A stretch of 44,430 nucleotides of DNA from Anaerolineae bacterium (GTDB lineage Bacteria > Chloroflexota > Anaerolineae > Anaerolineales > Villigracilaceae), in NCBI GenBank assembly GCA_003130845.1, contig QEXW01000153.1, positions 1 to 44,430 on the forward strand, read 5' to 3'. The notes below the pieces were generated by a model that saw only the letters and a list, made by a program, of their open reading frames with translations, made no database searches and was not told the origin of the DNA. Positions 11,948 to 40,115 of the stretch are shown one piece after another; positions within the stretch are counted from its first letter, which is position 1; each line of letters starts with the position of its first letter. Both the position numbers and the translations under genes were made by a program.

Positions 11948-11954
11948 CCCACGC

Positions 11955-12818
11955 ATGATGCGGCGCGTGTTTCTCTTATCTGTTTTGGTGTCTGCTGTTT
12001 TCGGGCTGGCCGTATTCTTATACTATCGGGGTCGCCCTCTTCCGCTAGAAATGCGCGAGGAAATCTATCCGTGTGTCGTCTATTATCGTAAAACACACAG
12101 CATACCACGCCCGATGATTGCTCACATTGTGACCGTAGATTTGACTTGCAAAAATATTCGCGTATTCGTTACTCCGCCTGAAAAAGGGGATAAGCAAAAC
12201 CCTCTGCGCGCCCGCACGACATCTGCTTTTGCACAGGAATTTGGTGTGCAGATTGCCATCAATGGTGATGGATTTACGCCTTGGTGGTCGAACAACCTGT
12301 TCGATTATTACCCCCATCCTGGCGACCCGGTACGTCCTTTGGGGTTGGCGGCTTCAAATGGACGACAGTATGGCACCGCCGAGCCCAAAGCGCCTATTCT
12401 TTACATCAATGACCGCAAAGAAGCCTCCTTTGGTAAACCGATTCGTAAAGTGCATACCGCCATTTCGGGGATGAGCTGGTTGGTGCGTGACCGCAAGGTA
12501 ATTGAAGACTTGAATGATACCTATGCTGCCCCGCGCACGGCGGTAGGATTAGATGGCCCTGGCACACGCTTAATCCTGATTGTGGTGGATGGCCGGCAAC
12601 CATTTTATAGCGAGGGCGCCACGATTGCTGAGTTGGCTGAGCTGATGTTGTATTATGGCGGGGATAATGCCATCATGCTTGATGGGGGTGGTTCTTCAAC
12701 GATGGTGATTGATTGGCCAAGCAAGGGATTGCAGGTGATGAACTCGCCGATTGATTTAGGAATTCCAGGTCGTGAGCGCGCGGTAGGAAATCATTTGGGT
12801 ATTTTTGCTGTGCCCTAA
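11955..12818 (+). CDS. Phosphodiester glycosidase (NAGPA-domain) family protein
   Basis: A 287-residue protein with an N-terminal hydrophobic anchor (about residues 5-22), so the domain lies outside the membrane. Motifs fit the NAGPA/DUF2233 phosphodiester glycosidase family: QIAINGDGF, RTAVGLDG, LIVVDGRQP and AIMLDGGGSSTMV near the C-terminus. Characterised relatives remove N-acetylglucosamine from phosphodiesters, and bacterial ones are linked to cell-wall or exopolysaccharide turnover. The ATG at 11955 sits 7 nt after a -10 box; an alternative ATG at 11904 would lie upstream of that box. The gene is divergent from the cyclase-like gene. The substrate is not predictable from sequence. Confidence 0.88.
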   Translation: MMRRVFLLSVLVSAVFGLAVFLYYRGRPLPLEMREEIYPCVVYYRKTHSIPRPMIAHIVTVDLTCKNIRVFVTPPEKGDKQNPLRARTTSAFAQEFGVQIAINGDGFTPWWSNNLFDYYPHPGDPVRPLGLAASNGRQYGTAEPKAPILYINDRKEASFGKPIRKVHTAISGMSWLVRDRKVIEDLNDTYAAPRTAVGLDGPGTRLILIVVDGRQPFYSEGATIAELAELMLYYGGDNAIMLDGGGSSTMVIDWPSKGLQVMNSPIDLGIPGRERAVGNHLGIFAVP

Positions 12819-12957: not shown

Positions 12958-15900
12958 ATGCAAAAGACTCTCGGTGAGCAAATCGAAGATTTGCGCCGCG
13001 CCATTCAGGCCCAAGAGGCACTTCGCTCGACGCTGGGTGCAGACGTCGTAGATATTGCTCTCTCCGTTTTGCGGCAGAAGCTCATCGAGTTGGAGCGCCA
13101 TCAGGCCGAAGAGATGGGCCGCGAGCAGCGTAAAATGGTTACGGTTATGGTTGCGGATGTCTCTAATTTTACGGCTTTGGCTGCTGGCATAGACGAAGAA
13201 GAAGTGGCAAACTTGATGAATCGGGTGTGGTCGCATGTAGACCTTATCATCCAGGCCCATGGAGGCCACATTCATAAGCACATGGGGGATAATGTGATTG
13301 CGCTCTGGGGCGCCTTGATGGCGCGCGAAGACGACTCCGAACAAGCAGTGCGCGCCGCGCTTAAAATTCAGCAAGAGATACCTGGTTGGGCGCTTGAACA
13401 CCCGGTTCAGATGCATATCGCTATTCATAGTGGCTCGGTTTTATTGGGAGAAGTGGGTACAACCCATGAAATTACAGCGGTGGGGCGCGCAGTCCATGTG
13501 GCCAGTTTGTTGACCACTGAAGCACGTCCGGGGGAAGTGGTAATTTCTCAACACACACTGCGCTTGATACGCGGTTTGTTCGATGTCGAACTATGTTCTG
13601 AATTGCCCATCTCGGGTTATGACCGGCCTTTGGCAGTCTATCGAGTTTTGCGTTCACGACCGTATGCCTTTCGCCCACGCACGCGTGGCGTGGAGGGCAT
13701 TGAGACGCGTATGGTTGGTCGCGAAGTAGAATTTCGTGCTCTGCAACATGCTCTGCAGGCGGTGCTGGAAACAGGCACAGCGCGCAGTCTGACGGTCCTG
13801 GGCGAGGCTGGCATAGGCAAAAGCCGTTTGCTTTACGAATTTGAGACTTGGCTCACACCGCGTGCCAGAAATTTCTGGATTGTGCGCGCCCGTGCTGCTG
13901 AGCGCACAACACGCGTTCCGTATACACTTTTGCGCGAGGCAATTACTCTACGTTTAGATATACCGGATGATGCCCCACTTGAACTTGCGCGCCAACGTTT
14001 GGAACGAATTGTGCAAGATATTTTGCCGCAAGATTCTGCTGCGCTGGAAAAAGCCCACTTCGTTGGACAATTGCTTGGTTTTGACTTTTCTGATGCGCCT
14101 GAACTGCGCGGCATTCTTTCGGACCCGGCACAAATTCGTGACCGGGCCTATCATTACTTATCTCAAGTTATTGCTGCCATCGCTGCCCGTCAGCCGGCTA
14201 TCTTGCTCTTGGAAGATTTGCATTGGGCGGATGATGCCTCGCTCAGCTTGCTGGAGTATCTGATGCAGCAGCTGCGCAATTTGCCCGTTTTTCTGGTTAT
14301 GACGGCGCGTTCGGCTTTGCTCAACCATTTGCCCGATTGGGAGCAACGCATCCCAGGACAACAGTTCATTCATTTGAGCCCTTTGGATGAAAGCGCGAGC
14401 CGTGCTTTGTTGCGTGAAATTCTACAAAAAGCGATTACTGTCCCAGCGGTTCTGGAAGAACTGGTAATGAGCAGCGCGGATGGTAATCCGTTCTACATCG
14501 AAGAACTCGTTAAGATGCTGATTGAGGATGGCATCATTCAGACAGGAGAAATCTGGACGGTGGATGAAACCCGCCTGGCGCAGCCGCGTATGCCTCTCAG
14601 TTTGACAGGTATTTTACAAGTCCGTTTGGATAGCTTACCTGAGCGAGAACGGCTTGTTTTGCAGGCTGCTTCGGCGATTGGGCGCGTGTTTTGGGATGGC
14701 GCTCTGGCTGTCTTAACCGGACTACGTCCTGATGAAATTGCGTTAGCCTTAGATGCCTTGCAAGCGCGTGAATTGATTTATCCTCAATCGCATTCCACAT
14801 TCAGCGAGCAGGGCGAGTACGTCTTCAAACATGCGTTGTTACGCCAGGTGACCTATGATAGTATTCTGAAGCGTCAACGTCGTCAGTATCATTTGGCTAT
14901 CGCAGAATGGCTAACAACCCAAATTCGAGAGCGCCTTTCTGAATATTCGGCTTTGGTGGCCGGGCACTTTGAAGCCGCCGAAGACTGGCGACACGCTGCC
15001 TTGTGGTATGGTCAGGCGGGTAAACAGGCCTACGATACCTACGCCCCTCAAGCAGCCGTGGAGTATCTTCAGAAAGCGCTGCAGTTTGCGCGCTATACCA
15101 ATCTCCCCGATTCTGAGCGCATGGATTGGTATGAATTATTAGGAAAATCGCTCTTTGCTCTGGCACGTTACCAACAAGCACTCGAGGCCTATCAAGAGAT
15201 GCGCGCCTTGGCGGATACTACCGCCAGCGTGAATGGTTGGGCAAGGGCTTGGTATAACATTGCGTATGTTCATGACCATTTGGGCAATAACACCCTCTCG
15301 CTCGAAAGCGCTGAAAACGCCTTGCGTTTGGCCGATAAGGGCGCTCGGCCAGAATTGCTCATCCGGGCTGTGTATGGCAAAGGTTGGGCGCTCTATCGTT
15401 TAGGCGATGCCAACAGCGCTATCCACCTCGGTGAATTGGCCTTGCGGATGGCACGCCAACTCGAAGATAAGATACATTCTCAGCGAGAAATGGCACAAGC
15501 CTGTCAGTTGCTCGGTGCAGCGTATGAATTACATGGTGAGTTGGAAAAATCGGCTCAATATGAGCAACGTGCGCTGGATTTATACCGCCTGTTGCGCGAC
15601 CGGCGTGGCGAGGCGGCCATGCTTAACAATCAAGGCGTAGGCGCTTTTGTGCGTGGTGATTATCAGACGGCTCTTTCTCGCTATGAAGAAGCCTTAAAAC
15701 TAGCCCACGAAATTGGCTCTCAAGACCGCCTGACCGTTTTCCTCAGCAATCGCGGCGGGGCGTATGTGGCGCTTGGACAGTTCCAGATGGCCGAGGCTGA
15801 CTTGCGGCAGGTTATCGAACGGGTGGGGAAAGACACAACGCATTATTTACCTCTCACCTATGTCTTCTTAGCAGAAGCCTTACTAGGGCAAGGCAAATGT

Positions 15901-16251
15901 GCAGAAGCCTGTGAATCTGCTCAAATGGGGTTGCGCCTGGCGCAAGAATCCGCACAACCGGATGTGGTTTCTTCGGCCTATCGTGTTTTAGGAAATTGTT
16001 CTGCGCAAAGGATGGCGCAAGAAGGATGTTTGGCGGGTTGTTGTTCCCCCGAAGATTGTTATCGTGAAAGTATCCGCATTGCTGAGGGAATTAATGCCCA
16101 GGCGGATAAGGCCCGCGCGCTGCGTGATTGGGCTATATTCGAAGAAGCATGTGGCAATCACGCTCACGCTGAAAGACTTCGCACGGAAGCGCAAGTTTTG
16201 TTTAAAAAATTGGGAATGACTTTAGAAGCACAACGCTTGGAGAAATCATGA
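12958..16251 (+). CDS. Degenerate cyclase-domain / AAA-type ATPase / TPR regulator
   Basis: A 1097-residue protein. An N-terminal coiled-coil-like helix (residues 5-58, EQIEDLRRAIQAQEALR) leads into one class III cyclase-homology domain (about 60-235). This keeps Asp67 and Asp111 for metals and Lys107 for purine recognition. The transition-state Asn and Arg of VNxAxRL are replaced in AVHVASLL (His180, Leu184), so catalysis is doubtful. A P-loop ATPase follows (GEAGIGKS 282-289; later AILLLEDLHWADD) and then many TPRs to the end. A late Cys-rich patch (EGCLAGCCSPEDC) is unusual. ATPase-TPR proteins of this type act as signal-responsive scaffolds or regulators, though no DNA-binding domain is seen. 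Its stop overlaps the next start (ATGA). Confidence 0.9.
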   Translation: MQKTLGEQIEDLRRAIQAQEALRSTLGADVVDIALSVLRQKLIELERHQAEEMGREQRKMVTVMVADVSNFTALAAGIDEEEVANLMNRVWSHVDLIIQAHGGHIHKHMGDNVIALWGALMAREDDSEQAVRAALKIQQEIPGWALEHPVQMHIAIHSGSVLLGEVGTTHEITAVGRAVHVASLLTTEARPGEVVISQHTLRLIRGLFDVELCSELPISGYDRPLAVYRVLRSRPYAFRPRTRGVEGIETRMVGREVEFRALQHALQAVLETGTARSLTVLGEAGIGKSRLLYEFETWLTPRARNFWIVRARAAERTTRVPYTLLREAITLRLDIPDDAPLELARQRLERIVQDILPQDSAALEKAHFVGQLLGFDFSDAPELRGILSDPAQIRDRAYHYLSQVIAAIAARQPAILLLEDLHWADDASLSLLEYLMQQLRNLPVFLVMTARSALLNHLPDWEQRIPGQQFIHLSPLDESASRALLREILQKAITVPAVLEELVMSSADGNPFYIEELVKMLIEDGIIQTGEIWTVDETRLAQPRMPLSLTGILQVRLDSLPERERLVLQAASAIGRVFWDGALAVLTGLRPDEIALALDALQARELIYPQSHSTFSEQGEYVFKHALLRQVTYDSILKRQRRQYHLAIAEWLTTQIRERLSEYSALVAGHFEAAEDWRHAALWYGQAGKQAYDTYAPQAAVEYLQKALQFARYTNLPDSERMDWYELLGKSLFALARYQQALEAYQEMRALADTTASVNGWARAWYNIAYVHDHLGNNTLSLESAENALRLADKGARPELLIRAVYGKGWALYRLGDANSAIHLGELALRMARQLEDKIHSQREMAQACQLLGAAYELHGELEKSAQYEQRALDLYRLLRDRRGEAAMLNNQGVGAFVRGDYQTALSRYEEALKLAHEIGSQDRLTVFLSNRGGAYVALGQFQMAEADLRQVIERVGKDTTHYLPLTYVFLAEALLGQGKCAEACESAQMGLRLAQESAQPDVVSSAYRVLGNCSAQRMAQEGCLAGCCSPEDCYRESIRIAEGINAQADKARALRDWAIFEEACGNHAHAERLRTEAQVLFKKLGMTLEAQRLEKS

Positions 16252-24843: not shown

Positions 24844-26004
24844 ATGGAGTTCAATTTATTTTTGCGCACATTGCAACGCGGCTGGTGGATGATTGTTCTA
24901 TCGGCTTTGGTTGCTACTACGGTTTCGTTGGTTGTTTCCTATATCACACCGCCCGTGTATGAAACTTCGGCTCGTTATGTCGTTTCTCCCAATGCGGGTT
25001 TGTTCTCAAGCAGTTGGGAACTGCTCTCTAGCCTCGATACGCTGGACCGACGTTCGATTGTCAACACCTACCGTGAAATGATAGCCAGCCCTTCGGTGTA
25101 TGAACGCTCACCCGAAATTCAAAAAATCATGCGCGAAATGTCGGATGAGTTCACCGTTTCAGTGACAGTTGTGCCGGATACTAACATCTTGAAACTCACC
25201 GTAGAAGGCCCTGACCCGCGCTTGGTTGTGCTGGTTGCCAAAGCCATTGGGGTAGAAGTATTAGCATACATCAACGAATTGAATCCCATTTACACCTTGA
25301 GTATTTTGGAAGAACCACAACTGCCCACTGCTCCGGTGCGTCCACAGCCGTTGGAAAATGCCTTGCTGGCTTTGGCGTTTGGCGGCATGGTGGGGTTGGT
25401 GTTGGCGTTTTCACGCGAGCAGCTGCAAAACACACTCGATAAACTGCGCGAGCGCTCTATCATTGATCATGTGACTTCGGTTTACACCCGTACCTACTTT
25501 GAGCGGCGTCTGCTCGAAGAAATCACCCAAAATCCCAATGCCAATTTTGCCGTTGGCATTATCAATTTGCGCGGTTTGGAGCAAGTGTTGAACGTCTTGC
25601 CTGAACCGATTTTCAACCGTGTGCTTAGCACAGTTGCCCGCAAGCTCAAGAACGAATTACGCGGACGAGATATTGTTGGGCGATGGGGCAGTACACAACT
25701 TGCTGTTATCCTGCCTGGTACTTCTGAAATGGCCGTAGAGCCAGCCTTCAAACGATTGCAGGTGTATCTCTCTGAGGCAATTGCCGTAGATAACATTGGT
25801 GATATGTCCTTCAACCCAGACCCTTGCATTGGCGCCACGTTTTACACCATGTTCGATACGGTGGAAGCGCTTACCGAACGGGTTCAAACTGCGGCAGAGC
25901 GGGCTTCGGCCATGTCGCAAGCGACGGTGGTGGTCGTCCGACCCCCGGCTCTGTTCACCCAAGAAAGCGTGGGGGATGTTCATTTTCGCGCCACAGGTAG
26001 CTGA
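24844..26004 (+). CDS. Wzz-like chain-length protein fused to a degenerate GGDEF domain
   Basis: A 386-residue inner-membrane protein. The N-terminal half is Wzz-like: TM1 (about 15-33), an extracytoplasmic part, the Pro-rich segment LPTAPVRPQPL (160-170) and TM2 (about 171-189). Such proteins set polysaccharide chain length. The cytoplasmic half (about 205-365) is a GGDEF fold, entered by DHVTSVYTRTYFERRL. The GGEEF loop is GSTQL (282-286) and the first metal-binding Asp is absent, so cyclase activity is unlikely. Arg273 and Asp276 form an RxxD motif, five residues before the loop, where diguanylate cyclases bind c-di-GMP. GAGGGAAAA precedes the ATG. It is first in the plus operon. I infer a c-di-GMP-responsive chain-length regulator. 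Confidence 0.88.
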   Translation: MEFNLFLRTLQRGWWMIVLSALVATTVSLVVSYITPPVYETSARYVVSPNAGLFSSSWELLSSLDTLDRRSIVNTYREMIASPSVYERSPEIQKIMREMSDEFTVSVTVVPDTNILKLTVEGPDPRLVVLVAKAIGVEVLAYINELNPIYTLSILEEPQLPTAPVRPQPLENALLALAFGGMVGLVLAFSREQLQNTLDKLRERSIIDHVTSVYTRTYFERRLLEEITQNPNANFAVGIINLRGLEQVLNVLPEPIFNRVLSTVARKLKNELRGRDIVGRWGSTQLAVILPGTSEMAVEPAFKRLQVYLSEAIAVDNIGDMSFNPDPCIGATFYTMFDTVEALTERVQTAAERASAMSQATVVVVRPPALFTQESVGDVHFRATGS

Positions 26005-26092: not shown

Positions 26093-28360
26093 ATGCCTGA
26101 ATCTTACAAGCGTATTTGTGTTCGTGTGTTCTTAATGGTGTTTATTGTTATTTTGTTTTCAGTTCACACCTTTCCGGTGGCAGCACAGGGAGCGCGTTGG
26201 CAACAGCCAGACCCAACAGCCAACGTATTTTCGTTTGCTCAGCTTGGCTATGTTGAACGCATTATGATTAGTCCGTACGATACTACACAGGTTTCGTTTG
26301 GCATCCCAGCCACCTGGGTGTTGACTCCTGATTCTTCCATCACCTTGCGTTTGAACTTTGCCAGTAGCCAGGCCGGCGTACAGAACACGGGGGAATTTCC
26401 CGGTGGCACTCTGCGGATTAGCTTCAATGGTGTTATCTTGCGCACCATCACTCTCGCGAAGGTGGGCGATTTCGTCGAAACCATTCCCCTCTCTCCTGAA
26501 GCCCTGCAACCTGTTGCTGCCGATGGTCGTCATCGCATTTCTTTTATCTTTGACGCCCGCTTTAGCTGTGAAGACCGAACCATTACCTCCTCGCTTGTCA
26601 TTCGCGATAGTTCCACGATTGACCTTAGGCATCAAACCATTCCGCTTCAACCCAACCTGACGACTTTCCCGCGCCCCTTCTATCAACCTGGCTCCATCCT
26701 CCCCTCACAGACCATCATTGTGGTTCCAGACGCTCCTTCTGAAGCCGAGCTGCGCGCAGCCATGCTGGTCTCGGCCGGTTTAGGTGCATTGACGGGTGGT
26801 AATTTGCAATATCGTCTCATCCCTCTCAGCCAAGCAGCCGCATTCCAGAACACTCCTGCCGATTTCATCTTGATTGGCTTGCCAGGTTCACTTTCTATCC
26901 TGGAACAGGTGCAACTCCCTTATTCTGCCAAAGAAGGAGGCTGGTTGCTGGAAGGTATCACTCCAGAAGATGGTCTCTTGCAGCTGGCTGTTTCACCATG
27001 GAACCCTAACCACCTGGCTCTGGTGGTCAGCGCAAATTCCGAGGTTGGTCTTATCAAAGCGGCGCAGGCGCTCAGCACGGGTAAGTTGGTTGCCACAGGC
27101 CGGCCTGATGTCTCGGTCATCAGCCAAGTTAACCCGGCAATTTTGAACGAATCTGTTCCGCAGGATCAAACCCTGTTTAGCCTGGGTTATGAAAATACCA
27201 CTTTGGGCGGTTTTGAAGGAACGTATGCCGCCTACTTCTTCCCCGCTTCTGCCGACCAGGTGCTTTCGTTGGGTGGCTATGTGGATATGGTTGTTTCCAG
27301 CACCAATCTGCTCGATGCTGAAAAAAGCGGTATGACCGTCTTCTTGAACGGGCGTTTTTTGGGCAGTTTGCGCTTTACCGGCGATGCCGAACAGGTGACA
27401 ACAACCCGTTTGCAGATTCTGCCAGGTATGTTACGGCGCGGTAATAACTTACTTGAAGTCTATAGCGACTTAATTCCAATTTACGATTGTTTTTCGCCTG
27501 ACTTATCGAGCAATGCGGTGGTCATTAGTGGCCTAACCAACATCCATCTGCCGGTGACAAGTCAGCAAATTGAACTTGGCACGCTCATTAACCTAGGAGA
27601 TTTCCCCTCTTTATTCTCCACAGACCGTAGTTTGGGTGACTTGGCCTTTGTGTTGGCTCGCAATGACCCCGCAGGCTGGGAAATGGCTTCCAAGTTGGCG
27701 TTTTTTATTGGGCGCAGCGCCTCCATCCCGGTGGCCAATCTCCAGGCGGTCTATGCCGATGTGGTTTCAGACGAAATTCGTCAAAAACACAACCTGATTA
27801 TGGTTGGAAGGCCTAGCCGATTGCCTTTAATGACGGAAATCAACGCCCAACTTCCGGCACCGTTTGATTTAGATACCGAGCAAGCCGTACAGCCCGCTCT
27901 GCTTGTGAATTATCGCTTGCTACCGGGCGTAAACGTTGGCTACTTACAATTGCTGGCTTCTCCTTGGCAGCCGACCAACGCTCTCTTACTTGTCTCTGGT
28001 AATTCAGAAGCAGGCGTTCCAATGGCGGCAGAAACGCTGCTTACGCCCGCGCGCCTTTCCCAACTCAGCGGTAATTTTGCCATCATCTACAACGAACAAG
28101 TTCTGACGACCGACACCCGTCTGGGACCGACCAAAGAGGCGCTTGGCGCCCAATTACCGGTCGCCATGACGGTGACACCTGCGCCAAGCACGGTAGCGTT
28201 GCCTGAATTTGACATGAGCCAAGTGGAGGAACGCCCGGCGTGGGTCTTGCCGGTCATCATTGCGCTATCTGCCATCAGTCTGGTGATTGTCCTGCTTGTT
28301 GCCGGGCGTGCTTTTCTCGTCCGCAACGCAGATAACAAAAATCGCACACTCCAAAAATAA
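26093..28360 (+). CDS. BcsB-like cellulose-synthase accessory subunit
   Basis: A 755-residue exported, tail-anchored protein. A signal peptide (about 1-32, ending FPVAAQG) is followed by two similar beta-rich halves with BcsB features: LRISFNGVILRTI, ARFSCEDRTITSSLVIRDSS, then SGMTVFLNGRFLGSL and PIYDCFSPDLSSNAVVI. The alternating flavodoxin-like segments end in IVVPDAP and LIMVGRPS. One C-terminal helix (about 716-738) precedes a short basic tail. In cellulose synthase, BcsB lies outside the membrane, guides the polymer and holds BcsA through its tail helix. The GT2 gene 22 bp downstream is the likely partner. AAAAAGGTG sets the start; a longer frame overlaps the Wzz-GGDEF gene. The polymer need not be cellulose. 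Confidence 0.85.
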   Translation: MPESYKRICVRVFLMVFIVILFSVHTFPVAAQGARWQQPDPTANVFSFAQLGYVERIMISPYDTTQVSFGIPATWVLTPDSSITLRLNFASSQAGVQNTGEFPGGTLRISFNGVILRTITLAKVGDFVETIPLSPEALQPVAADGRHRISFIFDARFSCEDRTITSSLVIRDSSTIDLRHQTIPLQPNLTTFPRPFYQPGSILPSQTIIVVPDAPSEAELRAAMLVSAGLGALTGGNLQYRLIPLSQAAAFQNTPADFILIGLPGSLSILEQVQLPYSAKEGGWLLEGITPEDGLLQLAVSPWNPNHLALVVSANSEVGLIKAAQALSTGKLVATGRPDVSVISQVNPAILNESVPQDQTLFSLGYENTTLGGFEGTYAAYFFPASADQVLSLGGYVDMVVSSTNLLDAEKSGMTVFLNGRFLGSLRFTGDAEQVTTTRLQILPGMLRRGNNLLEVYSDLIPIYDCFSPDLSSNAVVISGLTNIHLPVTSQQIELGTLINLGDFPSLFSTDRSLGDLAFVLARNDPAGWEMASKLAFFIGRSASIPVANLQAVYADVVSDEIRQKHNLIMVGRPSRLPLMTEINAQLPAPFDLDTEQAVQPALLVNYRLLPGVNVGYLQLLASPWQPTNALLLVSGNSEAGVPMAAETLLTPARLSQLSGNFAIIYNEQVLTTDTRLGPTKEALGAQLPVAMTVTPAPSTVALPEFDMSQVEERPAWVLPVIIALSAISLVIVLLVAGRAFLVRNADNKNRTLQK

Positions 28361-28382
28361 AAAGAAAAGGGGGACTGCTGCT

Positions 28383-29552
28383 ATGGCATTTCTTTTCTGG
28401 TTTGCGGTGTTGTTTATCCTTTACGTCTATTTCGGTTACCCGTTGTTGGTGGCGCTTCTGGCGCGTTTTCGCCCCGCTCAACCACCGGCCTTGAAGGAAC
28501 TGCCCTCGGTCACGCTGCTCATTGCGGCCTACAACGAGGAAAAAGTGATTGCCAGCAAACTGGAAAATTCACTCGCGCTTGATTACCCGCGTCAGAAACT
28601 ACAAATCTTGGTCGCTGCGGATGGCTCATCCGACCGGACGCCTGACATCGTCCGTCAGTTCGAGGCACAAGGCGTTGAGCTGAACTATATCCCCGAGCGG
28701 AATGGCAAAATGGCGGCCATTGTGCGCGCTATGCCACGTGCGCGCGGCAGCATTGTAGTGATTTCTGATGCCAACAATATGTACAATGAACAGGCGATTC
28801 GAGAACTGGTCAAACCGTATGGCGACCCCAAAGTGGGTGCGACGACCGGTGCGAAGTTGATTCTCGAAGATGAAAGGCAATTGAGTTTTGCCGAAGGCTT
28901 TTACTGGAAATACGAATCGTGGATTAAAGAAAATGAAACCCGCCTGAGCACCTGCACTTCAGCCGTAGGCGAGATGCTCTCTATCCGCAAGGAACTCTTC
29001 CAACCGCCCACACGCAAAATCGTGAATGATGACCGTTACACTGTGTTTAACCTGATTCGGCGCGGCTATCGTGTGTATTACACCCCAGCAGCGCGTTCTT
29101 ACGAAACGGTCTCCAAAACCGCGAAGGATGAAATTGTACGCCGCACCCGCATGGTGGCTGGAGCGTATCAGACGGTGGCGATGGCCGGTGAACTTCTGCC
29201 GTTTAATCGTCCGTTGGTGTTGTGGCAAGTCATTTCACACAAATATTTGCGCGCTTACGTGCCATTTGCCATGATTTTGGCGCTGATTTCCAACCTGGCA
29301 CTGGTTGTTTTTCCACCCAAAGCAGGTTCTTTCTGGCAGTTGGCCTATCCCTTCAATGTGATTTTCCTGGCTTTACAAGCGGGATTTTATGGCTTGGCTG
29401 TGTTTGGGAATTTTGTGCGTTTTAAGGGCCCGCTGGGTAAACTTTTGTATCTGCCCACGTTTTTGGTCAATTCAAATTACGCTGTTCTGATGGGCTTGTT
29501 TAGTTTCTTAACCAACAAAAATATCCATCTTTGGCAACGCGTTGAACGTTGA
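28383..29552 (+). CDS. Membrane family 2 glycosyltransferase, synthase-like, no PilZ domain
   Basis: A 389-residue membrane GT2 enzyme. After one N-terminal helix comes the GT-A domain: VTLLIAAYNEEKVI, LVAADGSSDRT, VVISDANNMY (second Asp site), IVNDDRYTVFNL (catalytic Asp position) and RRTRMVAGAY in place of the QxxRW motif of processive synthases. Three or four C-terminal helices follow. Size and layout match synthases such as those for N-acetylglucosamine or cellulose-type polymers, but there is no C-terminal PilZ domain. Together with the BcsB-like protein it could form a secreting synthase. The altered QxxRW leaves a non-processive role open. AAAAGGGGG lies upstream of the ATG. Confidence 0.87.
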   Translation: MAFLFWFAVLFILYVYFGYPLLVALLARFRPAQPPALKELPSVTLLIAAYNEEKVIASKLENSLALDYPRQKLQILVAADGSSDRTPDIVRQFEAQGVELNYIPERNGKMAAIVRAMPRARGSIVVISDANNMYNEQAIRELVKPYGDPKVGATTGAKLILEDERQLSFAEGFYWKYESWIKENETRLSTCTSAVGEMLSIRKELFQPPTRKIVNDDRYTVFNLIRRGYRVYYTPAARSYETVSKTAKDEIVRRTRMVAGAYQTVAMAGELLPFNRPLVLWQVISHKYLRAYVPFAMILALISNLALVVFPPKAGSFWQLAYPFNVIFLALQAGFYGLAVFGNFVRFKGPLGKLLYLPTFLVNSNYAVLMGLFSFLTNKNIHLWQRVER

Positions 29553-29559
29553 GTGTTAC

Positions 29560-30594
29560 ATGGCTTCCTGGCGCAACCGCGTATTTTCCACTTCACTTGC
29601 GTTGGCGTTTCGAGTAGGGCTATTTGACCGATTACGGCTCCTGCATGCCCAATCGCTCACCGTATTAAACTATCATCGCATTGACCATTTCGATTCCCCC
29701 GAGTTTGACCTGTTCAAGCCGAACGTCAGTGCGACGCCACAGGAATTTTCTCGCCAAATGGATTACGTTCGGGGGCGCTACAATGTCATTTCGGTTCAGC
29801 AATTGGCGGCCTGGCTTAAGGGTGAAGCCAGCTTACCTCCACACGCCGCACTAATCACTTTTGATGATGGCTATGCCGATAACTTGACCTATGCTTTTCC
29901 TATTTTGAAGGCGTGCAACTTGCCGGCTGTCATTTTTCTGACCACCGGCTTTTTGGAAACAACCCGTCCTTTTTATTGGGACTTGGTGGCTTATTGTTTT
30001 CATCACACCCGCCGTGATTCGGTCATCTTGCCGGGCCTTGGCGAGCGTTTTTGGAATAGCGTGCCGCAACGTGAAAAAATCATGCGCGCTTGGATTGAAA
30101 TGCTCAAAACGTTGCCGGATGATGAAAAAAATGCCCGGATTGAGAATTTGCCGGCTTCCTTGGGTGTTTCTATCCCTGAGAAACGGTTTGCCGGTTTGTA
30201 TTTGACCTGGGAACAAATTCGTACCATGCACCGCCAAGGAATCGAATTTGGCTCGCACACCGTTTCACATCCTATTTTGACGCGCATCTCGCTTGAGCAG
30301 GTTCATCGTGAATTGACCGAATCGCGCCGTACACTTGAACAGGAAATCGGTGAGCCAGTTGTCTCCTTGGCCTATCCCAACGGTCAGGCTACCGATTTTT
30401 CCCCCGCTGTTGTTCACGCCGCACAACAGGCCGGGTTTTTGCTGGCGTTTAGCCTACTCCCTGGCCCTACCCGTTACCAAACGGTCCGGCGCAGCCCGTT
30501 TACCATTCGGCGCATTTATATTGGCAACACCGATACTCTGCCCCGCTTTGCGGCTAAACTGAGCGGCCTAGCACGGCTTAGTGCTGTGTTTTAA
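29560..30594 (+). CDS. Polysaccharide deacetylase (CE4/NodB-type)
   Basis: A 344-residue hydrolase of the NodB homology family, which removes N- or O-acetyl groups from polysaccharides using a bound metal. Motif 1 is TFDDGYAD (Asp102, Asp103), motif 2 is GSHTVSHP at about 231-238 (two metal His residues), and LAYPNGQ follows as the next family block. There is no clear signal peptide, only a weakly hydrophobic N-terminus, so its location is uncertain. It begins 7 bp after the GT2 stop. It is the last gene of the plus operon and overlaps the convergent GT4 gene by 17 bp. It probably tailors the polymer made by this operon or a lipid-linked precursor. Confidence 0.9.
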   Translation: MASWRNRVFSTSLALAFRVGLFDRLRLLHAQSLTVLNYHRIDHFDSPEFDLFKPNVSATPQEFSRQMDYVRGRYNVISVQQLAAWLKGEASLPPHAALITFDDGYADNLTYAFPILKACNLPAVIFLTTGFLETTRPFYWDLVAYCFHHTRRDSVILPGLGERFWNSVPQREKIMRAWIEMLKTLPDDEKNARIENLPASLGVSIPEKRFAGLYLTWEQIRTMHRQGIEFGSHTVSHPILTRISLEQVHRELTESRRTLEQEIGEPVVSLAYPNGQATDFSPAVVHAAQQAGFLLAFSLLPGPTRYQTVRRSPFTIRRIYIGNTDTLPRFAAKLSGLARLSAVF

Positions 30595-32960: not shown

Positions 32961-34526
32961 CTATCCCTGCCATTGGATTTGATTTTTTTGATACATTGCC
33001 TGAAGAATCTCACGATTAATCGCAACGGCTGACATCGCAAAGCCGATTAACACCCAAATATACCGAAAGAGCAACCCGTGTAGGAACATTCCACTGATTA
33101 GGAATGTGGTGAGCGAAAATATCAGGGCAACAGTCCAAGAGGTCCAGCTGGTGTGGATGTGATACTCATCATATTTTTTATATGACCGCCAAAGCGACGC
33201 AAAGAGCGAGAAAAAGAAAAACGCAAAGGTGAGAAAGCCTGCTAACCCCATTTCTGAGAGAATCTCGACATAGAGTGAGTGTGGGTTCTTTCTACCTTGC
33301 GCCGAGGCGCGGTAGGTGGAATTCACTAATCCCAATTCGCTGGCATATTTCCAGTAGTGGTTCGAGTAGTTACCAAATCCAACGCCGAGAAAGGGATGAT
33401 CCCAAAACATCGCCATGCCGGCTTTCATTTGGTTATTGCGGCTGACAAAAGAGGAATCTTGGTATAGCGCATACTCGTCATTGGTCTGGAACACCGCGCG
33501 CAGAGAAAATAACCGTTCGGTGTAGTTAGAGGGTAGCAGGATGAACATCGAGATGATAACCAATGCCCCGACCATCATCTGCACAGGTCGGATTTTCATT
33601 TCCAGGGCTACCAATGGCAAAATGAGACCCATCGCCAGAAAAGCACCGCGACTATTGGTGAAGATGACTGCCAGCAAAAGCACCAGGGAGGCGAGCAGTG
33701 CCAATAGTCTGCGGCGGCCATTCTTTTCATAGCGCAGCTGATATAGGGCGAGCGGCACGGAGGCTGCCAGCACTTGCCCCCACATGTTTGATTCGCCAAT
33801 TGGTCCGCCATACCGTAACGTGCCGCTTGCATCCAGTTGTCCAATGATGCTCAATTGCGCCAACCCCAAAAAGGTCTGTTCGGTGCCGCTCATCATCTTA
33901 ACCACCCCCAAACCACCGACAATTGTCATGGTTGCCAGGAAAACGCGCAAACAAGTTTCCCATTTTTCTCGTGTATCCAGCGTGACGAAAATGATAATGC
34001 CGATTAGAATGTCTTTGGTGACGTCAATAATTACATTCAGTGCATCACCCAGGTCAGACGAAACCAAACTGGAGCTGACAATGACCCCATAAAAGAGCAG
34101 CAGTGTCCATTCGGCCCGACCCATTTGGGGTAACTTAAACTTACCGGTTTGCAAAAAGTAATTTGCTATGATGCTGACACCAATCACTGCCACCAGCGGC
34201 TTGTTAATGCTGGGTAGCCCCTGGGTGGTCATCAAGTCAGATGCGTTGGTAAAGACCATGATGGTGAGAAGATAGGCGCCCAACTCTGGTTTCTGATAAA
34301 TTGCCATGACGATGACGAACCCAATGATGCCCGCAAAAGCCAATACTTTGAGTTCCATATCGCCATAGGCGATGCCCAATCCGCCGACACTGGCAGCAAG
34401 CAAAGCGGCGACGGCAAATATCCCCCACGGAATGTTGCGGGTGTAAAGTTTGGGTAGGTAATGGGTGCTTCTGTCGTTTTCTGGCGTCATGGTGCTAGAA
34501 GAAGTGGAATGGATGTGCGTATTCAT
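32961..34526 (-). CDS. Wzy/O-antigen-ligase-family membrane protein
   Basis: A 521-residue membrane protein with about 12 hydrophobic segments and one large extracytoplasmic loop (about residues 345-430). The loop holds FWDHPFLGVGFGNYSNHYW and NPHSLYVEILSEMGLAG, the typical G-x-G-x-x-N-x-x and H-N/S-x-x-L pattern of the Wzy_C/O-antigen ligase family. Such proteins polymerise or transfer lipid-linked repeat units. Being next to Wzx and GT4 genes favours the polymerase role. It would work with the Wzz-like protein of the plus operon, which should control its product length. Confidence 0.88.
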   Translation of the reverse strand: MNTHIHSTSSSTMTPENDRSTHYLPKLYTRNIPWGIFAVAALLAASVGGLGIAYGDMELKVLAFAGIIGFVIVMAIYQKPELGAYLLTIMVFTNASDLMTTQGLPSINKPLVAVIGVSIIANYFLQTGKFKLPQMGRAEWTLLLFYGVIVSSSLVSSDLGDALNVIIDVTKDILIGIIIFVTLDTREKWETCLRVFLATMTIVGGLGVVKMMSGTEQTFLGLAQLSIIGQLDASGTLRYGGPIGESNMWGQVLAASVPLALYQLRYEKNGRRRLLALLASLVLLLAVIFTNSRGAFLAMGLILPLVALEMKIRPVQMMVGALVIISMFILLPSNYTERLFSLRAVFQTNDEYALYQDSSFVSRNNQMKAGMAMFWDHPFLGVGFGNYSNHYWKYASELGLVNSTYRASAQGRKNPHSLYVEILSEMGLAGFLTFAFFFFSLFASLWRSYKKYDEYHIHTSWTSWTVALIFSLTTFLISGMFLHGLLFRYIWVLIGFAMSAVAINREILQAMYQKNQIQWQG

Positions 34527-34581: not shown

Positions 34582-36048
34582 TCAAGAACGCTTGGCGGTC
34601 AGTACCAATTGTGCTAACCGAAAGAGCGCATCACCTTCCAAGCGCCAGATGATGAGCAAGTAAAGCGTGGCACCGGTCAGAACAACCATCGGCAATTGGG
34701 CAAACGGGCTCAGGTTTTGTGTGAAGAGAAGGGTCCCCCAGGCGGTTGGCAGCATAAACACAATCCCCAGCGCTGCGGGTTTTATCTCAGCGAGAATGTC
34801 TCCCCATGAAACATGGATGAAGCGCCCGGCGACATACAGCGTAATGGCCTGGTCGAAAATGATGGCAATCAGGTAGCCCCAGGCAAAACCAAGCAACCCG
34901 AATTGCGAGCCAAGCAGGAGGGCCGGCACCAAGATGGCTGCGCTCATGATGTTGAGTTTGAAGAGGATATCCGGTCGCCCAAGGGCTTTATAGACATCCC
35001 CCGCATGATATCCGACGGAGTAAATCAGCGCGTACATAGAGAGGATGCGCAACAGCGGAATGGCTTCCAGCCACTGCTCACCGAAGAAGACGCGTACAAT
35101 CGGTTCCGCGGCGACAAGCAATCCAAAGCAGAGCGGCATGACAATCAGTTGCACCAGGCGGATGGAGACCAAAAAGCCACGCCGCAACTCATCGGGCTTA
35201 TCTTGAATGGAAGAAAAGGCCGGAAATAAGACCGAAGCAATCAGCCACAAATTCCCCACAATCAACATTTCTGGCAAGCGGTAGGAGATACTAAACACAC
35301 CGAGCGCGGCCACTCCCAACAGCCGTCCAATCACAAGGTAGCTCAAATTATCTACAAACACCGCCAAAACATCCACTCCTGTCACTGAAGCCCCGAACTG
35401 GATTAATTGACGGGCTAGCGGTAGATTGATTCGCAAGCGGGGCCGCCAAGGCTTGATGAGCCATGCCGCCAGCGTTGAGGCTAGCGCCCCCGCCAACTGT
35501 CCAAAGACCAACGACCATACCCCTAAGCCGCTCAACGCTAGCCACAGTGAGAGGATACCTTTGACAACGGTATTGCCCATATCGGGGATGAATTTGCGGC
35601 GGTAGTCTAGGTCGCGCATCAGCAAGTTGATGTGAGTTGCCCCCAGGGCGTTGATGGCAAACGAAAGCCCCAGCCAGCTTAAAACGGGCGTCACTTGCGG
35701 TTCTTGAAAATAGGCTGCAAAAAGAGGAGCCAGCGGTAAAACCAACAGTGAAAGCACGACCCCAAGGAGCAGATTGATGGTGAAGACCGTGTTCGCAGCC
35801 TCTTCCACATCGTCACGCCGTTGAATGAGCGCTAGCCCTAACCCTAAATCTTTGACCACCGCAAGGTAATTCATCGCAACCACTGCAATGGCCACAAGCC
35901 CGAAATCTTCTTTGCTCAGCAGACGGGCCAAAATAGAGGTCGTCAGCAGCAAAATGCTTTTGCTAACCCCAAACGATAGAAAATTCCAAATCACTCCTCG
36001 CCCTGCTTTACGGGCAATCGAAGTGCGTTCATTCGATGAGTTGTTCAC
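34582..36048 (-). CDS. Wzx-type polysaccharide flippase (MOP superfamily)
   Basis: A 488-residue protein with about 12-14 membrane helices and the N-terminal signature of lipopolysaccharide/exopolysaccharide flippases: RKAGRGVIWNFLSFGVSKSILLLTTSILARLLSKEDFGLVAIA, then GLGLALIQRRD. It moves lipid-linked repeat units across the membrane. The start is a GTG at 36048, supported by AAGGG 7 nt upstream; no in-frame ATG lies nearby. It sits between the Wzy-like gene (55 bp) and an acyltransferase-like gene (21 bp) in the minus operon. Confidence 0.9.
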   Translation of the reverse strand: MNNSSNERTSIARKAGRGVIWNFLSFGVSKSILLLTTSILARLLSKEDFGLVAIAVVAMNYLAVVKDLGLGLALIQRRDDVEEAANTVFTINLLLGVVLSLLVLPLAPLFAAYFQEPQVTPVLSWLGLSFAINALGATHINLLMRDLDYRRKFIPDMGNTVVKGILSLWLALSGLGVWSLVFGQLAGALASTLAAWLIKPWRPRLRINLPLARQLIQFGASVTGVDVLAVFVDNLSYLVIGRLLGVAALGVFSISYRLPEMLIVGNLWLIASVLFPAFSSIQDKPDELRRGFLVSIRLVQLIVMPLCFGLLVAAEPIVRVFFGEQWLEAIPLLRILSMYALIYSVGYHAGDVYKALGRPDILFKLNIMSAAILVPALLLGSQFGLLGFAWGYLIAIIFDQAITLYVAGRFIHVSWGDILAEIKPAALGIVFMLPTAWGTLLFTQNLSPFAQLPMVVLTGATLYLLIIWRLEGDALFRLAQLVLTAKRS

Positions 36049-36069: not shown

Positions 36070-37245
36070 TCAAATATGTCGTTTGTCAACCCGATGGGTA
36101 ATCCAATCCGGGCGATATTTTGCCACTTGCAGCAACCAGGCTTTCCATTTTTGCGCGAAGCGGACACTGGTCAAAGCCGCCTTTCCAAGCGGGGATAGCG
36201 TCAGCCATCCTTCCACGAGATTTCTACGCCCAGGCCAAATTTTGTTTACATACGAATTGGGCTGGGTGGAACTATCAATGTACTCTAAATCGCGGAAGGC
36301 ATCTTCAGCGTGTTCTAGCATCTGAATCAGATTGACCGTTCCCGGCGAATATTTTGCGTAGCGCGTGTCCCAACCCAGCTTGAAACCAAAACCCACATTG
36401 CCCGAAAGTAGATTCACGGTGGAGGCGATGATGGTTTGGTCCAAGCGGAGTTCGGTGAGGAATAAACGACCCGCACGCTGAAAACCCGCACTCATCTCAC
36501 GAAAGAATTCTAAATCGTTCGCGCGAGAAGCAATGGAGGTCTTTTGTTGTTCCTTCCAACCCATGTGTTCTAACCGTAGGAATTCTTGCAAACTGTGGTT
36601 CAGCGGCTGGTCTCCACGCTGGACAATCCAATCTACCGTGCCTAATGCTTTGAGTTGTCGCACATGCCGTTGATAGTCTTTGTGTGCATGATGAGAAATG
36701 CTTGGCAATGCCTGAAAGTCATTCTGACCGGGGCGCAGCACGGGGCGTTGCCAGGTTTGCAAGAGGTGCCACTGGAAACCGGAAGCCGAAATAGCCGCCC
36801 TGGTTTCTGCTGCCGCAGCAAGCTCTTGCGGAAAATTATCCACATATAGCCCGTGCCAAAGGTGTTGTTCTGTGGCCAGGAATTGTGCCAAACGTTGCAG
36901 CGCTTGTTGCGCATAGTCTCTATCTAGCAATAAACCGGATAGATACGAATGCTCTGAGGCAAACATGGACAAGTGCGGTAAAGGAAAATGCCGATTGGGT
37001 TGATGAGATTGGAACAAAGCAACCCCAATCAGCGTGGAAGTGCCTCTGGTCTTTCTCTCGATGAATATACCGAACGCGTTTTGATTTGCCATAAGATGCC
37101 GAATGGCCGGTATGACAAAATAGGGTGAGAGAAACGCGTTTGGCACGCTGGCCCGTGTCTCCAAGTCCACCCAGGCTGAAAGTGATTGCGCAGCAAATTC
37201 GGTTGCAGGCACGAGTTGCAGGGTAATTTCAGACCATGAATGCAT
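36070..37245 (-). CDS. FemAB/GNAT-like acyltransferase, paralogue A
   Basis: A 391-residue soluble protein resembling the FemAB-like/CelD (GNAT_6) group often found in exopolysaccharide clusters, where acyl or aminoacyl transfer to sugars is the usual proposal. The C-terminal GNAT core includes LRLEHMGWKEQQKTSIASRA, RLFLTELRLDQTIIASTVNL and GFKLGWDTRYAKYSPGTVNL. It is clearly paralogous to the next gene upstream over its whole length (PNAFLSPYFVIPA, PNRHFPLPHL, WPGRRNLVEGWLTLSPLGKAA in both with few changes). It starts 7 bp after that gene, so tandem duplication is likely. The donor and acceptor are unknown. Confidence 0.82.
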   Translation of the reverse strand: MHSWSEITLQLVPATEFAAQSLSAWVDLETRASVPNAFLSPYFVIPAIRHLMANQNAFGIFIERKTRGTSTLIGVALFQSHQPNRHFPLPHLSMFASEHSYLSGLLLDRDYAQQALQRLAQFLATEQHLWHGLYVDNFPQELAAAAETRAAISASGFQWHLLQTWQRPVLRPGQNDFQALPSISHHAHKDYQRHVRQLKALGTVDWIVQRGDQPLNHSLQEFLRLEHMGWKEQQKTSIASRANDLEFFREMSAGFQRAGRLFLTELRLDQTIIASTVNLLSGNVGFGFKLGWDTRYAKYSPGTVNLIQMLEHAEDAFRDLEYIDSSTQPNSYVNKIWPGRRNLVEGWLTLSPLGKAALTSVRFAQKWKAWLLQVAKYRPDWITHRVDKRHI

Positions 37246-37252
37246 ACGGTGC

Positions 37253-38401
37253 TTATTGACTGCTTTTCAAGCGTGAACGTAGAGCGGATTTGAGTTTTTT
37301 GGCGTTTTGTACTGCTTGTAATGCCGCTTCTCCTAGCAACGTGAGTGAAAACCAACCTTCGCACAACTTGCGACGACCAGGCCAAAATTCATTGATGTAT
37401 GAATCTGGCGCAGTACAGCCATCAATATAAGTTAAGGATGGACACTGCGCCAGGTGTTGAATGAACTTGATTTCGTTAATAATCCCTAAGCCATATTCTG
37501 CGTATGCGTTATCCCACCCGATTTTCAATGCAAACCCAACCTCAGCGGAAATGATGTTGGCAGTAGAGGCAATCACTTGCCGATTTAGACGGATTTCTGT
37601 CAGATAGGCGCGACCGGCGCGATGAAATCCGTTCATCATTTCTCGGAAGAAATTGGCTTCGTGCGGGTTGGAAAGCAAAGATGTTCCATTCTCTTTTTTC
37701 CAGCCGGAATGTTCTACGCGTAGGAAATCTTCTAGGCTGGATTGGAAGGCGTTTGGCGCATTCATCTGCACAGCCCATTCAATGACACCATGCTCTTCTA
37801 ACCGCTTTAAGTTTTTTTGATAATTTTTTTGTCGTCGTTTTGGAATGTAAGAAGTCAGGGTAGTTTCTGCTTCTTGGGGGAACAAAATTGCCCGTTCCCA
37901 TTCTTCCACTCCATGCCAGCGTATATGCTGTTCGCGAGCGGCGTCTTGGGCTTGCTCGTTCCAAAGGATTTCTTGCGAGGCGTTGTTGATATACAACCCG
38001 TGCCAAATCTGCTTGGTATGGCGCAGCGTTTGGTATAGATGTGCTTGCACCTCGGCAGCGCAACTTTGGTCAATCAGGAAGTCGGAGAGATAAGAATGAA
38101 TCGATAAAAATGCAGCGAGATGTGGCAGAGGAAAACGGCGGTTGGGTCGCCGAGTCTGAAACCAAGCGACACCCACCAAATCGCGACTGCCCGCGGAGAG
38201 TTTCTCTATAAATATCCCGAAGCATGCTTCGGCTGGTACCAAGTATTTCAGTGCAGGCAGTACAAAATACGGGGAGAGGAAGGCATTCGGGTATATGGCG
38301 CGCTTTTCGAGGTCAGCCCAGGCTGCGACGAGGCGATGGTCTACCTCGGCAGGGGTCAGGAAGCGTGTTTCGTAGCGGCATGAACTTTGGTTAATGTTCA
38401 T
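37253..38401 (-). CDS. FemAB/GNAT-like acyltransferase, paralogue B
   Basis: A 382-residue protein with the same organisation as its neighbour: PNAFLSPYFVLPA, PNRRFPLPHL, WHGLYINNASQE, VEHSGWKKENGTSLLS, RAYLTEIRLNRQVIASTANI, GFALKIGWDNAYAEYGLGIINEI and WPGRRKLCEGWFSLTLLGEAA. The start at 38401 has AAGGAT 6 nt upstream, inside the end of the preceding gene. The two paralogues differ most in their N-terminal 30 residues and in the middle, consistent with different sugar targets. The function is inferred from family and neighbourhood only. Confidence 0.82.
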   Translation of the reverse strand: MNINQSSCRYETRFLTPAEVDHRLVAAWADLEKRAIYPNAFLSPYFVLPALKYLVPAEACFGIFIEKLSAGSRDLVGVAWFQTRRPNRRFPLPHLAAFLSIHSYLSDFLIDQSCAAEVQAHLYQTLRHTKQIWHGLYINNASQEILWNEQAQDAAREQHIRWHGVEEWERAILFPQEAETTLTSYIPKRRQKNYQKNLKRLEEHGVIEWAVQMNAPNAFQSSLEDFLRVEHSGWKKENGTSLLSNPHEANFFREMMNGFHRAGRAYLTEIRLNRQVIASTANIISAEVGFALKIGWDNAYAEYGLGIINEIKFIQHLAQCPSLTYIDGCTAPDSYINEFWPGRRKLCEGWFSLTLLGEAALQAVQNAKKLKSALRSRLKSSQ

Positions 38402-38408
38402 AATATCC

Positions 38409-40115
38409 TTAAGGGGCACGCAGTTGTTCAAGTTGCAGCAGGGCTGAATTGAACCCCAGAGATTGCACAGCGTTCGGATGCGCTTGATATAACTCTCGCA
38501 AGGTACGTGAATAGCCGGTTAGCACAATCATGCTTGGAGCGGCGAGGCGAGAGAGTGCTTCGCTTACGAATGTTGTTTGCTCCCCTTCGAGTTCGGCATA
38601 ATAGACAACAACCGTCTCGCCGTTAGCATGCTGGAAACGGCGTTCGGTGAACAGGCCATCTACGCCTAAACGGTCGTATGGGTCAGATGTTTGAAATCCG
38701 CGCGCATATAACGCGTTCAAATAATACTCTGGCGCCCAATGGGTGACCACAATCGGCAGTTTCAATCGTAAAGCCGTTTCAATCACTTGCTGTCGCTCTG
38801 TGGCAGCTTTTTGTGTGAAGTTCCTCCACTCGCCTAAAAGCACCCAACCATGACCATAGAGCGCCCGCACGCCCTCAGGAGTGGGAAAGGCAGCGCCAGG
38901 GCCCAAAACCACCCGAACACCGCTTTCGGCGGTTGGTTCATCGAATCTTCGCATTTCGAACCCGGGCCCCCAGGCTGCGTTCGCGCGGCTCAATTGCACT
39001 CCGACCAACCAGGGCGAGACCAGCACAACCAAAGAGAGCATCAACAGGATGACGTTTAAGTTCCGGCGCTGCGCAAACTGCATTAAAACCCATCCGCCTA
39101 GCCCCACCAGGAGTACCAGTGGCGGGAGAGAAGTGATGATAAATTTTGGCACACCCGATTTCAGCCAGGGCAAAGCGCTCAACAAACCAGCCATCACGGG
39201 CAACAGCAGGGGGTGACGTGTGCGCATGAGATGAGTTAAGCCCAGCAGAGCCAACCCAATCAAGCCTGGCGTAAACAACGGCGTGAGAGTCAGGCCAGAG
39301 CGCAACAAAATTTCGGATAGAGATACATCTGCTTGTGGACCTAGCGAGCCTGCCTGATTCATCACATACTGAACGGTTTGTACTTTGGCGAGAAAATCCG
39401 CTAGGCCGTAGCCACTCAGGGTGACCATTAACACAGCGCTCAGGCTGGCTAGGCTGCCCCACGTCACGGCATGCCGCCAATTTTTGGAGAGAGGTTTTTC
39501 CGTTGGCCAAATTAGCACATCAGCAAGGATAACCAGCGCGTAGGCTGCTACATTCCACCGAAAAGAAACCCCTAGTCCAAATAAAACGAGTGTGAGTGCA
39601 TACAAGAGGGAAGTGCGCGCAGCAGGCAAGGCGGTTTGTCGTAGGCAATAGCGCAAGAGCAGGTGTGCTGCCAGTGCCAAGCACATCGCAATCAGCGTGG
39701 GGGAGTATGTCAGACTCAGATAGGCCAATTCGGGTACAGCCAGCAAAAACGCTAGTGTTATCAGCGCTTTGTGTCCTGCCGTATGTTCGATTGAGATTTG
39801 CTTTAGCCAATCGAATGTGAGCAAAAGCAGCAAGATGGCAAAGCATACACCTGCCAGGCGTGTGAGTCGGAAGGCTGTATGGCGCAAGACAGGTTCGCTG
39901 GCCGGCAGCAAACTGAGTAAGCGGTCCATCATCCCATGATATGGAGAATAGACCGGCTGCACTTGTGGGTCACGCCCCATCACGTGATACGCAATGGAAG
40001 CGGCATCATCACCATCTATGTAAACGAACGTGCCTGCACGCCAGAAAATCAACCCCAGGAAGATTACTGGAAGTCCAATCCACCACCAATTCCAAGCATA
40101 CCGGTGTAAATTCAT
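38409..40115 (-). CDS. Polytopic GT-C/family-39-like membrane glycosyltransferase
   Basis: A 568-residue protein with about ten hydrophobic segments. The first extracytoplasmic loop carries acidic residues (VYIDGDDAAS, Asp34-Asp37) where GT-C enzymes of the GT39/ArnT type hold their catalytic Asp. The last 150 residues form a soluble, probably extracytoplasmic domain (RVVLGPGAAFPTPEGVRALYGHG onward). GT-C enzymes take sugars from polyprenyl phosphates. The assignment rests on topology and the acidic loop, so a non-enzymatic membrane protein remains possible. It lies between acyltransferase-like genes in the minus operon, 7 and 13 bp from its neighbours. Confidence 0.65.
   Translation of the reverse strand: MNLHRYAWNWWWIGLPVIFLGLIFWRAGTFVYIDGDDAASIAYHVMGRDPQVQPVYSPYHGMMDRLLSLLPASEPVLRHTAFRLTRLAGVCFAILLLLLTFDWLKQISIEHTAGHKALITLAFLLAVPELAYLSLTYSPTLIAMCLALAAHLLLRYCLRQTALPAARTSLLYALTLVLFGLGVSFRWNVAAYALVILADVLIWPTEKPLSKNWRHAVTWGSLASLSAVLMVTLSGYGLADFLAKVQTVQYVMNQAGSLGPQADVSLSEILLRSGLTLTPLFTPGLIGLALLGLTHLMRTRHPLLLPVMAGLLSALPWLKSGVPKFIITSLPPLVLLVGLGGWVLMQFAQRRNLNVILLMLSLVVLVSPWLVGVQLSRANAAWGPGFEMRRFDEPTAESGVRVVLGPGAAFPTPEGVRALYGHGWVLLGEWRNFTQKAATERQQVIETALRLKLPIVVTHWAPEYYLNALYARGFQTSDPYDRLGVDGLFTERRFQHANGETVVVYYAELEGEQTTFVSEALSRLAAPSMIVLTGYSRTLRELYQAHPNAVQSLGFNSALLQLEQLRAP

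Follow-up and report, generated by a model that had tools for sequence, protein, structure and literature searches.

Direct c-di-GMP receptors of exopolysaccharide production, namely BcsA, BcsE, Alg44, PelD and NfrB, have been described in synthase-type machines. PelD is a membrane-anchored protein with a degenerate GGDEF domain, an RxxD motif followed by a downstream Arg, and a gene within an exopolysaccharide locus (PMC8461298, PMC7112168); as portrayed in the sections of these papers devoted to it, it serves Pel and combines four predicted transmembrane (TM) helices with a GAF domain. Binding of c-di-GMP by PelD requires R367, D370 and R402 (PMC8461298), and R363, D366 and R395 are needed in the B. 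cereus protein (PMC7112168). SgmT is an I-site receptor whose active site is dead, and its residues are R763, D766 and R794; the R763A change abolished binding, R794 was assigned to a secondary site, and mutating the I-site or removing the GGDEF domain altered localisation only, with no phenotype in motility or development (PMC3509222). BcsE and PopA also combine a dead active site with an I-site; BcsE is soluble, SgmT is a histidine kinase without a predicted TM helix and PopA is a response regulator (PMC8461298, PMC3509222). Sensing of c-di-GMP on a co-polymerase is described for Alg44 (PMC8461298). Wzc, a co-polymerase of the PCP-2a type, consists of TM1, an alpha/beta periplasmic core, TM2 and then a cytoplasmic domain, which is a BY-kinase. 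The sensor of Alg44 is a PilZ domain, a fold unlike GGDEF, and works in the alginate system, and we know of no Wzz module in BcsE, SgmT or PopA.

We analysed a window of 44,430 nucleotides (the whole stretch of DNA under study, contig QEXW01000153.1 of an Anaerolineae bacterium) that encodes a Wzz-type protein fused to a degenerate GGDEF domain. The protein shares with PelD the membrane anchor, the degenerate domain with RxxD and a downstream Arg, and the exopolysaccharide locus, but it has only two TM helices, its periplasmic part is a PCP core and it gave no match to GAF; the parallel with PelD that an earlier note on this DNA had drawn holds, with these differences. With BcsE, SgmT and PopA it has in common the dead active site accompanied by an I-site, and the spacing from the Asp to the downstream Arg, 28 residues, is identical to that in SgmT (PMC3509222). 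We consider it somewhat probable that this is a Wzz/PCP co-polymerase of a Wzx/Wzy-type exopolysaccharide system whose dead GGDEF end serves as a receptor that binds c-di-GMP at an I-site it has kept (R273, D276 and R304). Such a protein would be the logic of PelD and BcsE placed on a Wzz protein. The earlier note knew of no described fusion of this kind, and we found no precedent for one in the full-text open-licence literature; in their relevant parts, PMC5532660, PMC11340318, PMC3584217, PMC7112194 and PMC4443731 place GGDEF domain and co-polymerase in separate proteins or treat just one of them generally.

Domain layout of the fusion protein

The fusion gene and the parts of its product are as follows.

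24844-26004, + strand: Wzz-GGDEF fusion gene, 386 aa (open reading frame; both Pfam families matched)
24880-24945, + strand: TM1, residues about 13-34 (hydropathy; model helix 2-34)
24952-25347, + strand: periplasmic alpha/beta PCP core, residues 37-168 (model of residues 1-206 aligned to Wzc)
25321-25350, + strand: Pro-rich segment P160-P169 preceding TM2 (sequence)
25348-25461, + strand: TM2 (residues 169-191) running on as a stalk helix to residue 206 (model, hydropathy)
25459-25938, + strand: degenerate GGDEF domain, residues 206-365 (Pfam match 206-354; fit to PleD 1w25)

From the N to the C terminus, the protein thus runs from TM1 through a Wzz-type periplasmic core, a Pro-rich stretch and TM2 into a single predicted helix and a GGDEF fold. 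Pfam Wzz was matched at residues 7-87 (E 8.9e-12, 45.6 bits against a cut-off of 25.5) and Pfam GGDEF at residues 206-354 (E 1.6e-13, over the curated cut-off); a GNVR match at 153-192 fell under the Pfam cut-off. The hydropathy plot marks membrane stretches at 13-36 and 169-191; a third stretch, at 125-146, also exceeds the threshold of 1.6, but the model shows it as a helix of the periplasmic part. Ahead of TM2, in the Pro-rich segment that the earlier note had reported, lie the prolines P160, P164, P167 and P169; across 57 aligned sequences P167 and P169 are invariant and P164 nearly so. An AlphaFold2 model built from the window protein and 56 relatives (pLDDT 90.2, pTM 0.66) has one unbroken helix, residues 169-206, joining TM2 to the GGDEF fold. 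Neither Pfam nor NCBIfam gave a match to a kinase family in the fusion protein, with E values up to 1 allowed, and an Rfam scan of the window gave no match at the gathering threshold.

When the Wzz half (residues 1-206) was predicted separately (pLDDT 88.7), its best fit was to Wzc (7nhr_C; Z 12.7, rmsd 2.7, 180 residues aligned), followed by other PCP proteins: KpsE (Z 12.4), WzzE (10.0) and WzzB (9.2). The best unrelated structure scored Z 8.7, which Wzc and KpsE clear well and WzzB only barely, and we therefore base membership of the Wzz family on the structural fits and the Pfam match taken together. Consistent with this assignment, two TM helices flank a periplasmic alpha/beta domain, as in Wzz/PCP co-polymerases. 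The order of parts is that of Wzc, but the GGDEF-like domain stands where Wzc carries its BY-kinase, and the periplasmic part is shorter, with 180 residues aligned to a Wzc chain of 565. For the other half, the overlay of the predicted domain on PleD (1w25) gave Z 23.1 and rmsd 1.8 over 166 residues, which confirms the GGDEF fold proposed earlier, and a Foldseek search with the whole model returned 146 PDB chains at E < 0.001. Sequence matches and predicted structures together establish both the PCP half and the GGDEF fold.

A Chloroflexota family with short forms

Homologues were found in 41 of 396 class genomes at E 1e-20 or better, in 45 places, none of which contains an internal stop. The class sample that we examined comprises the window and 40 further sequences; G124, G048, G372 and the second place in G318 lie outside it. 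In 30 of these 41 sequences, from 29 genomes, the GGDEF region is present; the other 11 are short forms that consist of Wzz only. All 30 aligned GGDEF-bearing sequences (the window and 29 others) match both the Wzz and the GGDEF Pfam families, and since the domain model also fits PleD, the fusion is not due to chance. Outside the class, a phylum sample of 400 gave full-length matches in eight genomes. Carriers in culture include Herpetosiphon aurantiacus DSM 785, Levilinea saccharolytica KIBI-1 and Leptolinea tardivitalis YMTK-2. The fusion reported in the earlier note is thus real, but it is a Chloroflexota family and not the single case it was taken for, and a second protein with a dead GGDEF domain lies in the same locus.

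A one-off fusion or an assembly artefact was considered and ruled out by the 30 of 41 sequences in 29 genomes and by a near relative, L092 (Anaerolineales SKYG2), which is 87-88% identical to the window protein and shares its gene order. The contigs of three close homologues (L091, L107 and L119) bear the titles Flavobacteriales, Planctomycetota and Nitrosomonas and are possibly mis-binned Chloroflexota.

In a tree of the Wzz half, the short forms are nested among the GGDEF-bearing rows; the label changes six times, and well-supported branches force three or more of these changes (the root serves for drawing only). Because of this nesting, the GGDEF domain has probably been lost more than once, as judged from the tree. 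Four kinase-fused rows form one starred branch (98/88); L005 and L259, labelled as short in the tree, are kinase-fused. Two relatives from the phylum sample carry an AAA_31 kinase-type domain behind TM2, starting at residues 263 and 247, on the cytoplasmic side that GGDEF occupies in the fusion family. Some short Wzz proteins (L062, L063, L064 and L070) end soon past TM2 and are encoded in similar clusters, and no BY-kinase match over the cut-off is present on their contigs. PCPs that have no kinase are known, for example GumC (PMC4443731, in the part that treats it). Given that short forms occur in similar clusters and nest within GGDEF-bearing rows, the GGDEF domain is dispensable.

The nesting of the short forms would also fit a vestigial domain that is decaying on an otherwise ordinary co-polymerase, as would the poor conservation of the fusion protein beyond residue 365. 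Over the last 11 aligned codons of the window gene and L091, dN/dS is 2.0, indicating that the tail is unconstrained. In three close pairs, however, the dead domain has dN/dS values of 0.054, 0.141 and 0.027, lower than those of the Wzz half (0.083, 0.216 and 0.052), and purifying selection, as estimated from these codon comparisons, acts on the dead domain in these pairs. In five other pairs, including those of the window with L091, L092 and L093, synonymous sites in the GGDEF region are saturated and give no ratio; the Wzz half of the window gene compared with L092 gives 0.053. Together with the lack of an internal stop in any of the 45 places, the three computable pairs make a vestigial domain very improbable.

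The lost active site and the candidate I-site

Four features of the GGDEF half bear on its activity and ligand.

25564-25566, + strand: N241 at the metal-binding Asp column (Asp in 58/58 live controls and 1/30 fusion rows)
25660-25671, + strand: I-site motif R273-G-R-D276 (aligned to RKSD of DgcR 6zxm)
25687-25701, + strand: dead active-site loop GSTQL, residues 282-286 (sequence, alignments)
25753-25755, + strand: R304, third I-site Arg position, 28 residues past D276 (PDB alignments)

For comparison we used a control set of 71 further GGDEF domains drawn from ten genomes; the loop is degenerate in 13 of them and the remaining 58 are live. In the last batch of these controls, 10 of the 20 domains were chosen among low scorers. 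A further 80 named loci were found with the I-site pattern, two of which (L169 and L170) matched in the GGDEF part only. As the search pattern was the I-site itself, these loci were kept out of the counts for R273 and D276.

The domain had been called catalytically dead, and the alignments establish this for the window protein and the family alike. GG(D/E)E is retained in none of the 30 class-sample rows and none of 57 named-set rows, the first Gly of the loop being kept on its own in 9 of the 30. Seven active-site columns that are conserved in 56-58 of 58 live controls drop to 0-4 of 30 in the fusion family, where the catalytic Glu is found in 0/30 rows, the metal Asp in 1/30 and the base Asn in 0/30. 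The intact fold would be in keeping with a diguanylate cyclase that is active through a site of unusual make-up, but given these losses, and GSTQL and N241 in the window protein itself, such a cyclase was ruled out as a candidate and we regard it as barely conceivable. The same columns bear on a different ligand, such as GTP, ppGpp or a sugar nucleotide. Two PDB entries, 9g85 and 9g86, are titled as PleD with c-di-GMP and ppGpp or pppGpp and lend this idea some plausibility. The nucleotide site has nevertheless lost its columns for the metal Asp, Lys, base Asn and Asp in 27 to 30 of 30 rows, so that a GTP-like mode of binding there is unlikely, and another ligand is on the whole improbable.

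The I-site motif lies where it had been claimed to lie. R273-x-x-D276 stands five residues ahead of the loop and falls on the I-site columns of DgcR without displacement; the two columns read R and D in 6zxm and A and A (AKSA) in 6zxb, which is titled as an I-site mutant, and the register of RxxD is therefore exact. R304 had gone unmentioned in the earlier note; its column is Arg in DgcR, SiaD and SadC, and the register of the triad is established by the alignments to these three proteins.

Conservation of the motif is less telling. R273 is retained in 25/30 fusion rows, against 51/58 live controls and 12/13 degenerate-loop controls, and D276 in 29/30, against 55/58 and 11/13. Retention of RxxD thus equals the background of live cyclases, which weakens the claim of binding. 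It is also what would be expected if the dead domain were a ligand-free docking or oligomerisation module, interacting with itself, a live cyclase or the companion protein described below, with R273 and D276 kept for the fold. That the domain persists although part of the triad is missing from 7/20 main-clade rows and 10/10 distant rows fits such a module as well. Against it, 20 polar columns are conserved in live domains and 16 of these have fallen below 80% in the fusion family, and both RxxD columns are among the four (D208, R273, D276 and R280) that stay at or above that level; by our own arithmetic the chance of this under random column decay is about 0.03. D208 and R280 presumably form a structural salt bridge. 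The third Arg also argues against a ligand-free module: it is found in 52/57 rows of the named set, which were selected by the RxxD pattern, and in 36/58 live domains (Fisher p 3e-4, disregarding kinship). All 13 degenerate-loop controls have it. On balance we think a docking module possible but rather unlikely.

Within the family, the R304 column reads Arg in 18 of the 20 main-clade rows and in none of the 10 distant ones. The complete triad is present in 13/20 main-clade rows, the window included, in 0/10 distant rows and in 31/58 live controls. Of the seven main-clade losses, four are R273P within a single lineage, one affects D276 and two affect R304. On this distribution of the triad, binding of c-di-GMP is likeliest for the window protein and the relatives closer to it, and in the distant clade it is doubtful.

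The surrounding locus and the proposed control of the co-polymerase

Other genes of the window include the following.

26093-28360, + strand: BcsB-like protein, the next gene downstream of the fusion (Pfam BcsB, 9.1e-56)
28380-29552, + strand: GT2 glycosyltransferase (Pfam; PilZ not matched with E up to 1)
29560-30594, + strand: polysaccharide deacetylase (Pfam PF01522, 6e-23)
32961-34526, - strand: Wzy-type polymerase/ligase (Pfam Wzy_C, 9.7e-20)
34582-36048, - strand: Wzx-type flippase (Pfam Polysacc_synt_3, 8.7e-82)
42468-43142, - strand: priming polyprenyl-phosphate sugar transferase (Pfam Bac_transf, 2.4e-63)
43208-44071, - strand: companion protein with N-terminal membrane helices and a second degenerate GGDEF domain (Pfam GGDEF, 4.8e-6)

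The gene order is GT2, GT4, fusion, BcsB, GT2 and deacetylase, with Wzy (about 7 kb from the fusion gene) and Wzx on the opposite strand. The priming transferase also matches NCBIfam TIGR03025 (7.2e-75), under the cut-off. Taking as the next recognised gene the next open reading frame within 1.5 kb that resembles a window gene, we found that of 78 named loci (L091-L168) 39 have Wzy, 37 have a BcsB-like gene and 2 run into a contig edge, counts that carry the same selection for the I-site pattern. Of the 29 fused loci in the class sample, 15 have Wzy and 10 have BcsB in this place, and 4, one of them at a contig end, have neither; the gene order there is less clean than in the named set. Although it adjoins the fusion in 37 of 78 loci, the BcsB-like gene is no obvious component of a Wzx/Wzy system. 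Three Acetyltransf_6 (GNAT-like) genes lie inside the polysaccharide cluster (36070-38431 and 40129-41274, both - strand). Elsewhere in the window, two large divergent genes (7906-12108, - strand, and 12958-16251, + strand) encode proteins that combine a nucleotide cyclase with AAA_16 and TPR.

A kinase partner next door was considered and rejected. In the 39 of 41 genomes with a hit that were searched (G048 and G372 lying outside), where over-cut-off matches alone were counted and short contigs limit the view, no match to TIGR01007 (BY-kinase) over the cut-off was found on the contig of the homologue, save in G213 at a distance of 1.3 Mb.

The companion gene adjoins that of the priming transferase, and a homologue is listed ahead of the transferase in 33 of 78 named loci. 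Its hydropathy suggests about four membrane helices, a layout similar to that of PelD but with no GAF match. The triad R198, D201 and R229 has the spacing seen in the fusion protein; across 23 companion rows (window included; two partial matches, L061 and L075, left out of the alignment) RxxD is present in 18 and the whole triad in 10. Recurrence of the companion beside the priming transferase would also suit the docking module considered above. The genome is equipped for c-di-GMP signalling, with 8 live GGDEF domains, 3 PilZ and 7 HD_5 (HD-GYP type) matches, but it gave no match to EAL.

In the reading that we prefer, that of a c-di-GMP receptor on a co-polymerase, c-di-GMP would bind the dead GGDEF domain as an intercalated dimer and bridge neighbouring GGDEF-like domains beneath the PCP ring. 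The signal could then pass through the helix formed by TM2 and the stalk and alter PCP assembly, which in turn may change polymer length or export, as the earlier note had proposed. Ligand binding would do here what tyrosine phosphorylation by the BY-kinase does in Wzc-type proteins. In favour of this reading we count the triads of PelD and SgmT, the constraint on the dead domain, the Wzy or BcsB neighbours, the lack of an over-cut-off BY-kinase near the gene in 39 genomes, the kinase-fused relatives and the c-di-GMP proteins of the genome; against it we count the background-level retention of RxxD, the incomplete triads, the short forms, the less clean gene order of the class sample, the SgmT mutants with their unchanged motility and development, and the absence of an EAL match. 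A broader proposal, which we put forward tentatively and think unlikely as a whole, is that in this branch of the Chloroflexota c-di-GMP took over control of the co-polymerase in the Wzx/Wzy pathway from tyrosine phosphorylation, with the fusion protein and the companion both reading c-di-GMP at their I-sites, possibly as a hetero-complex that couples chain initiation to chain length.

If the receptor reading is correct, control by c-di-GMP would reach the Wzx/Wzy pathway itself, by way of its Wzz co-polymerase, and the cytoplasmic place behind TM2, known for housing a tyrosine kinase, could house a ligand sensor instead. The cultured carriers make c-di-GMP control of the co-polymerase testable in this family.
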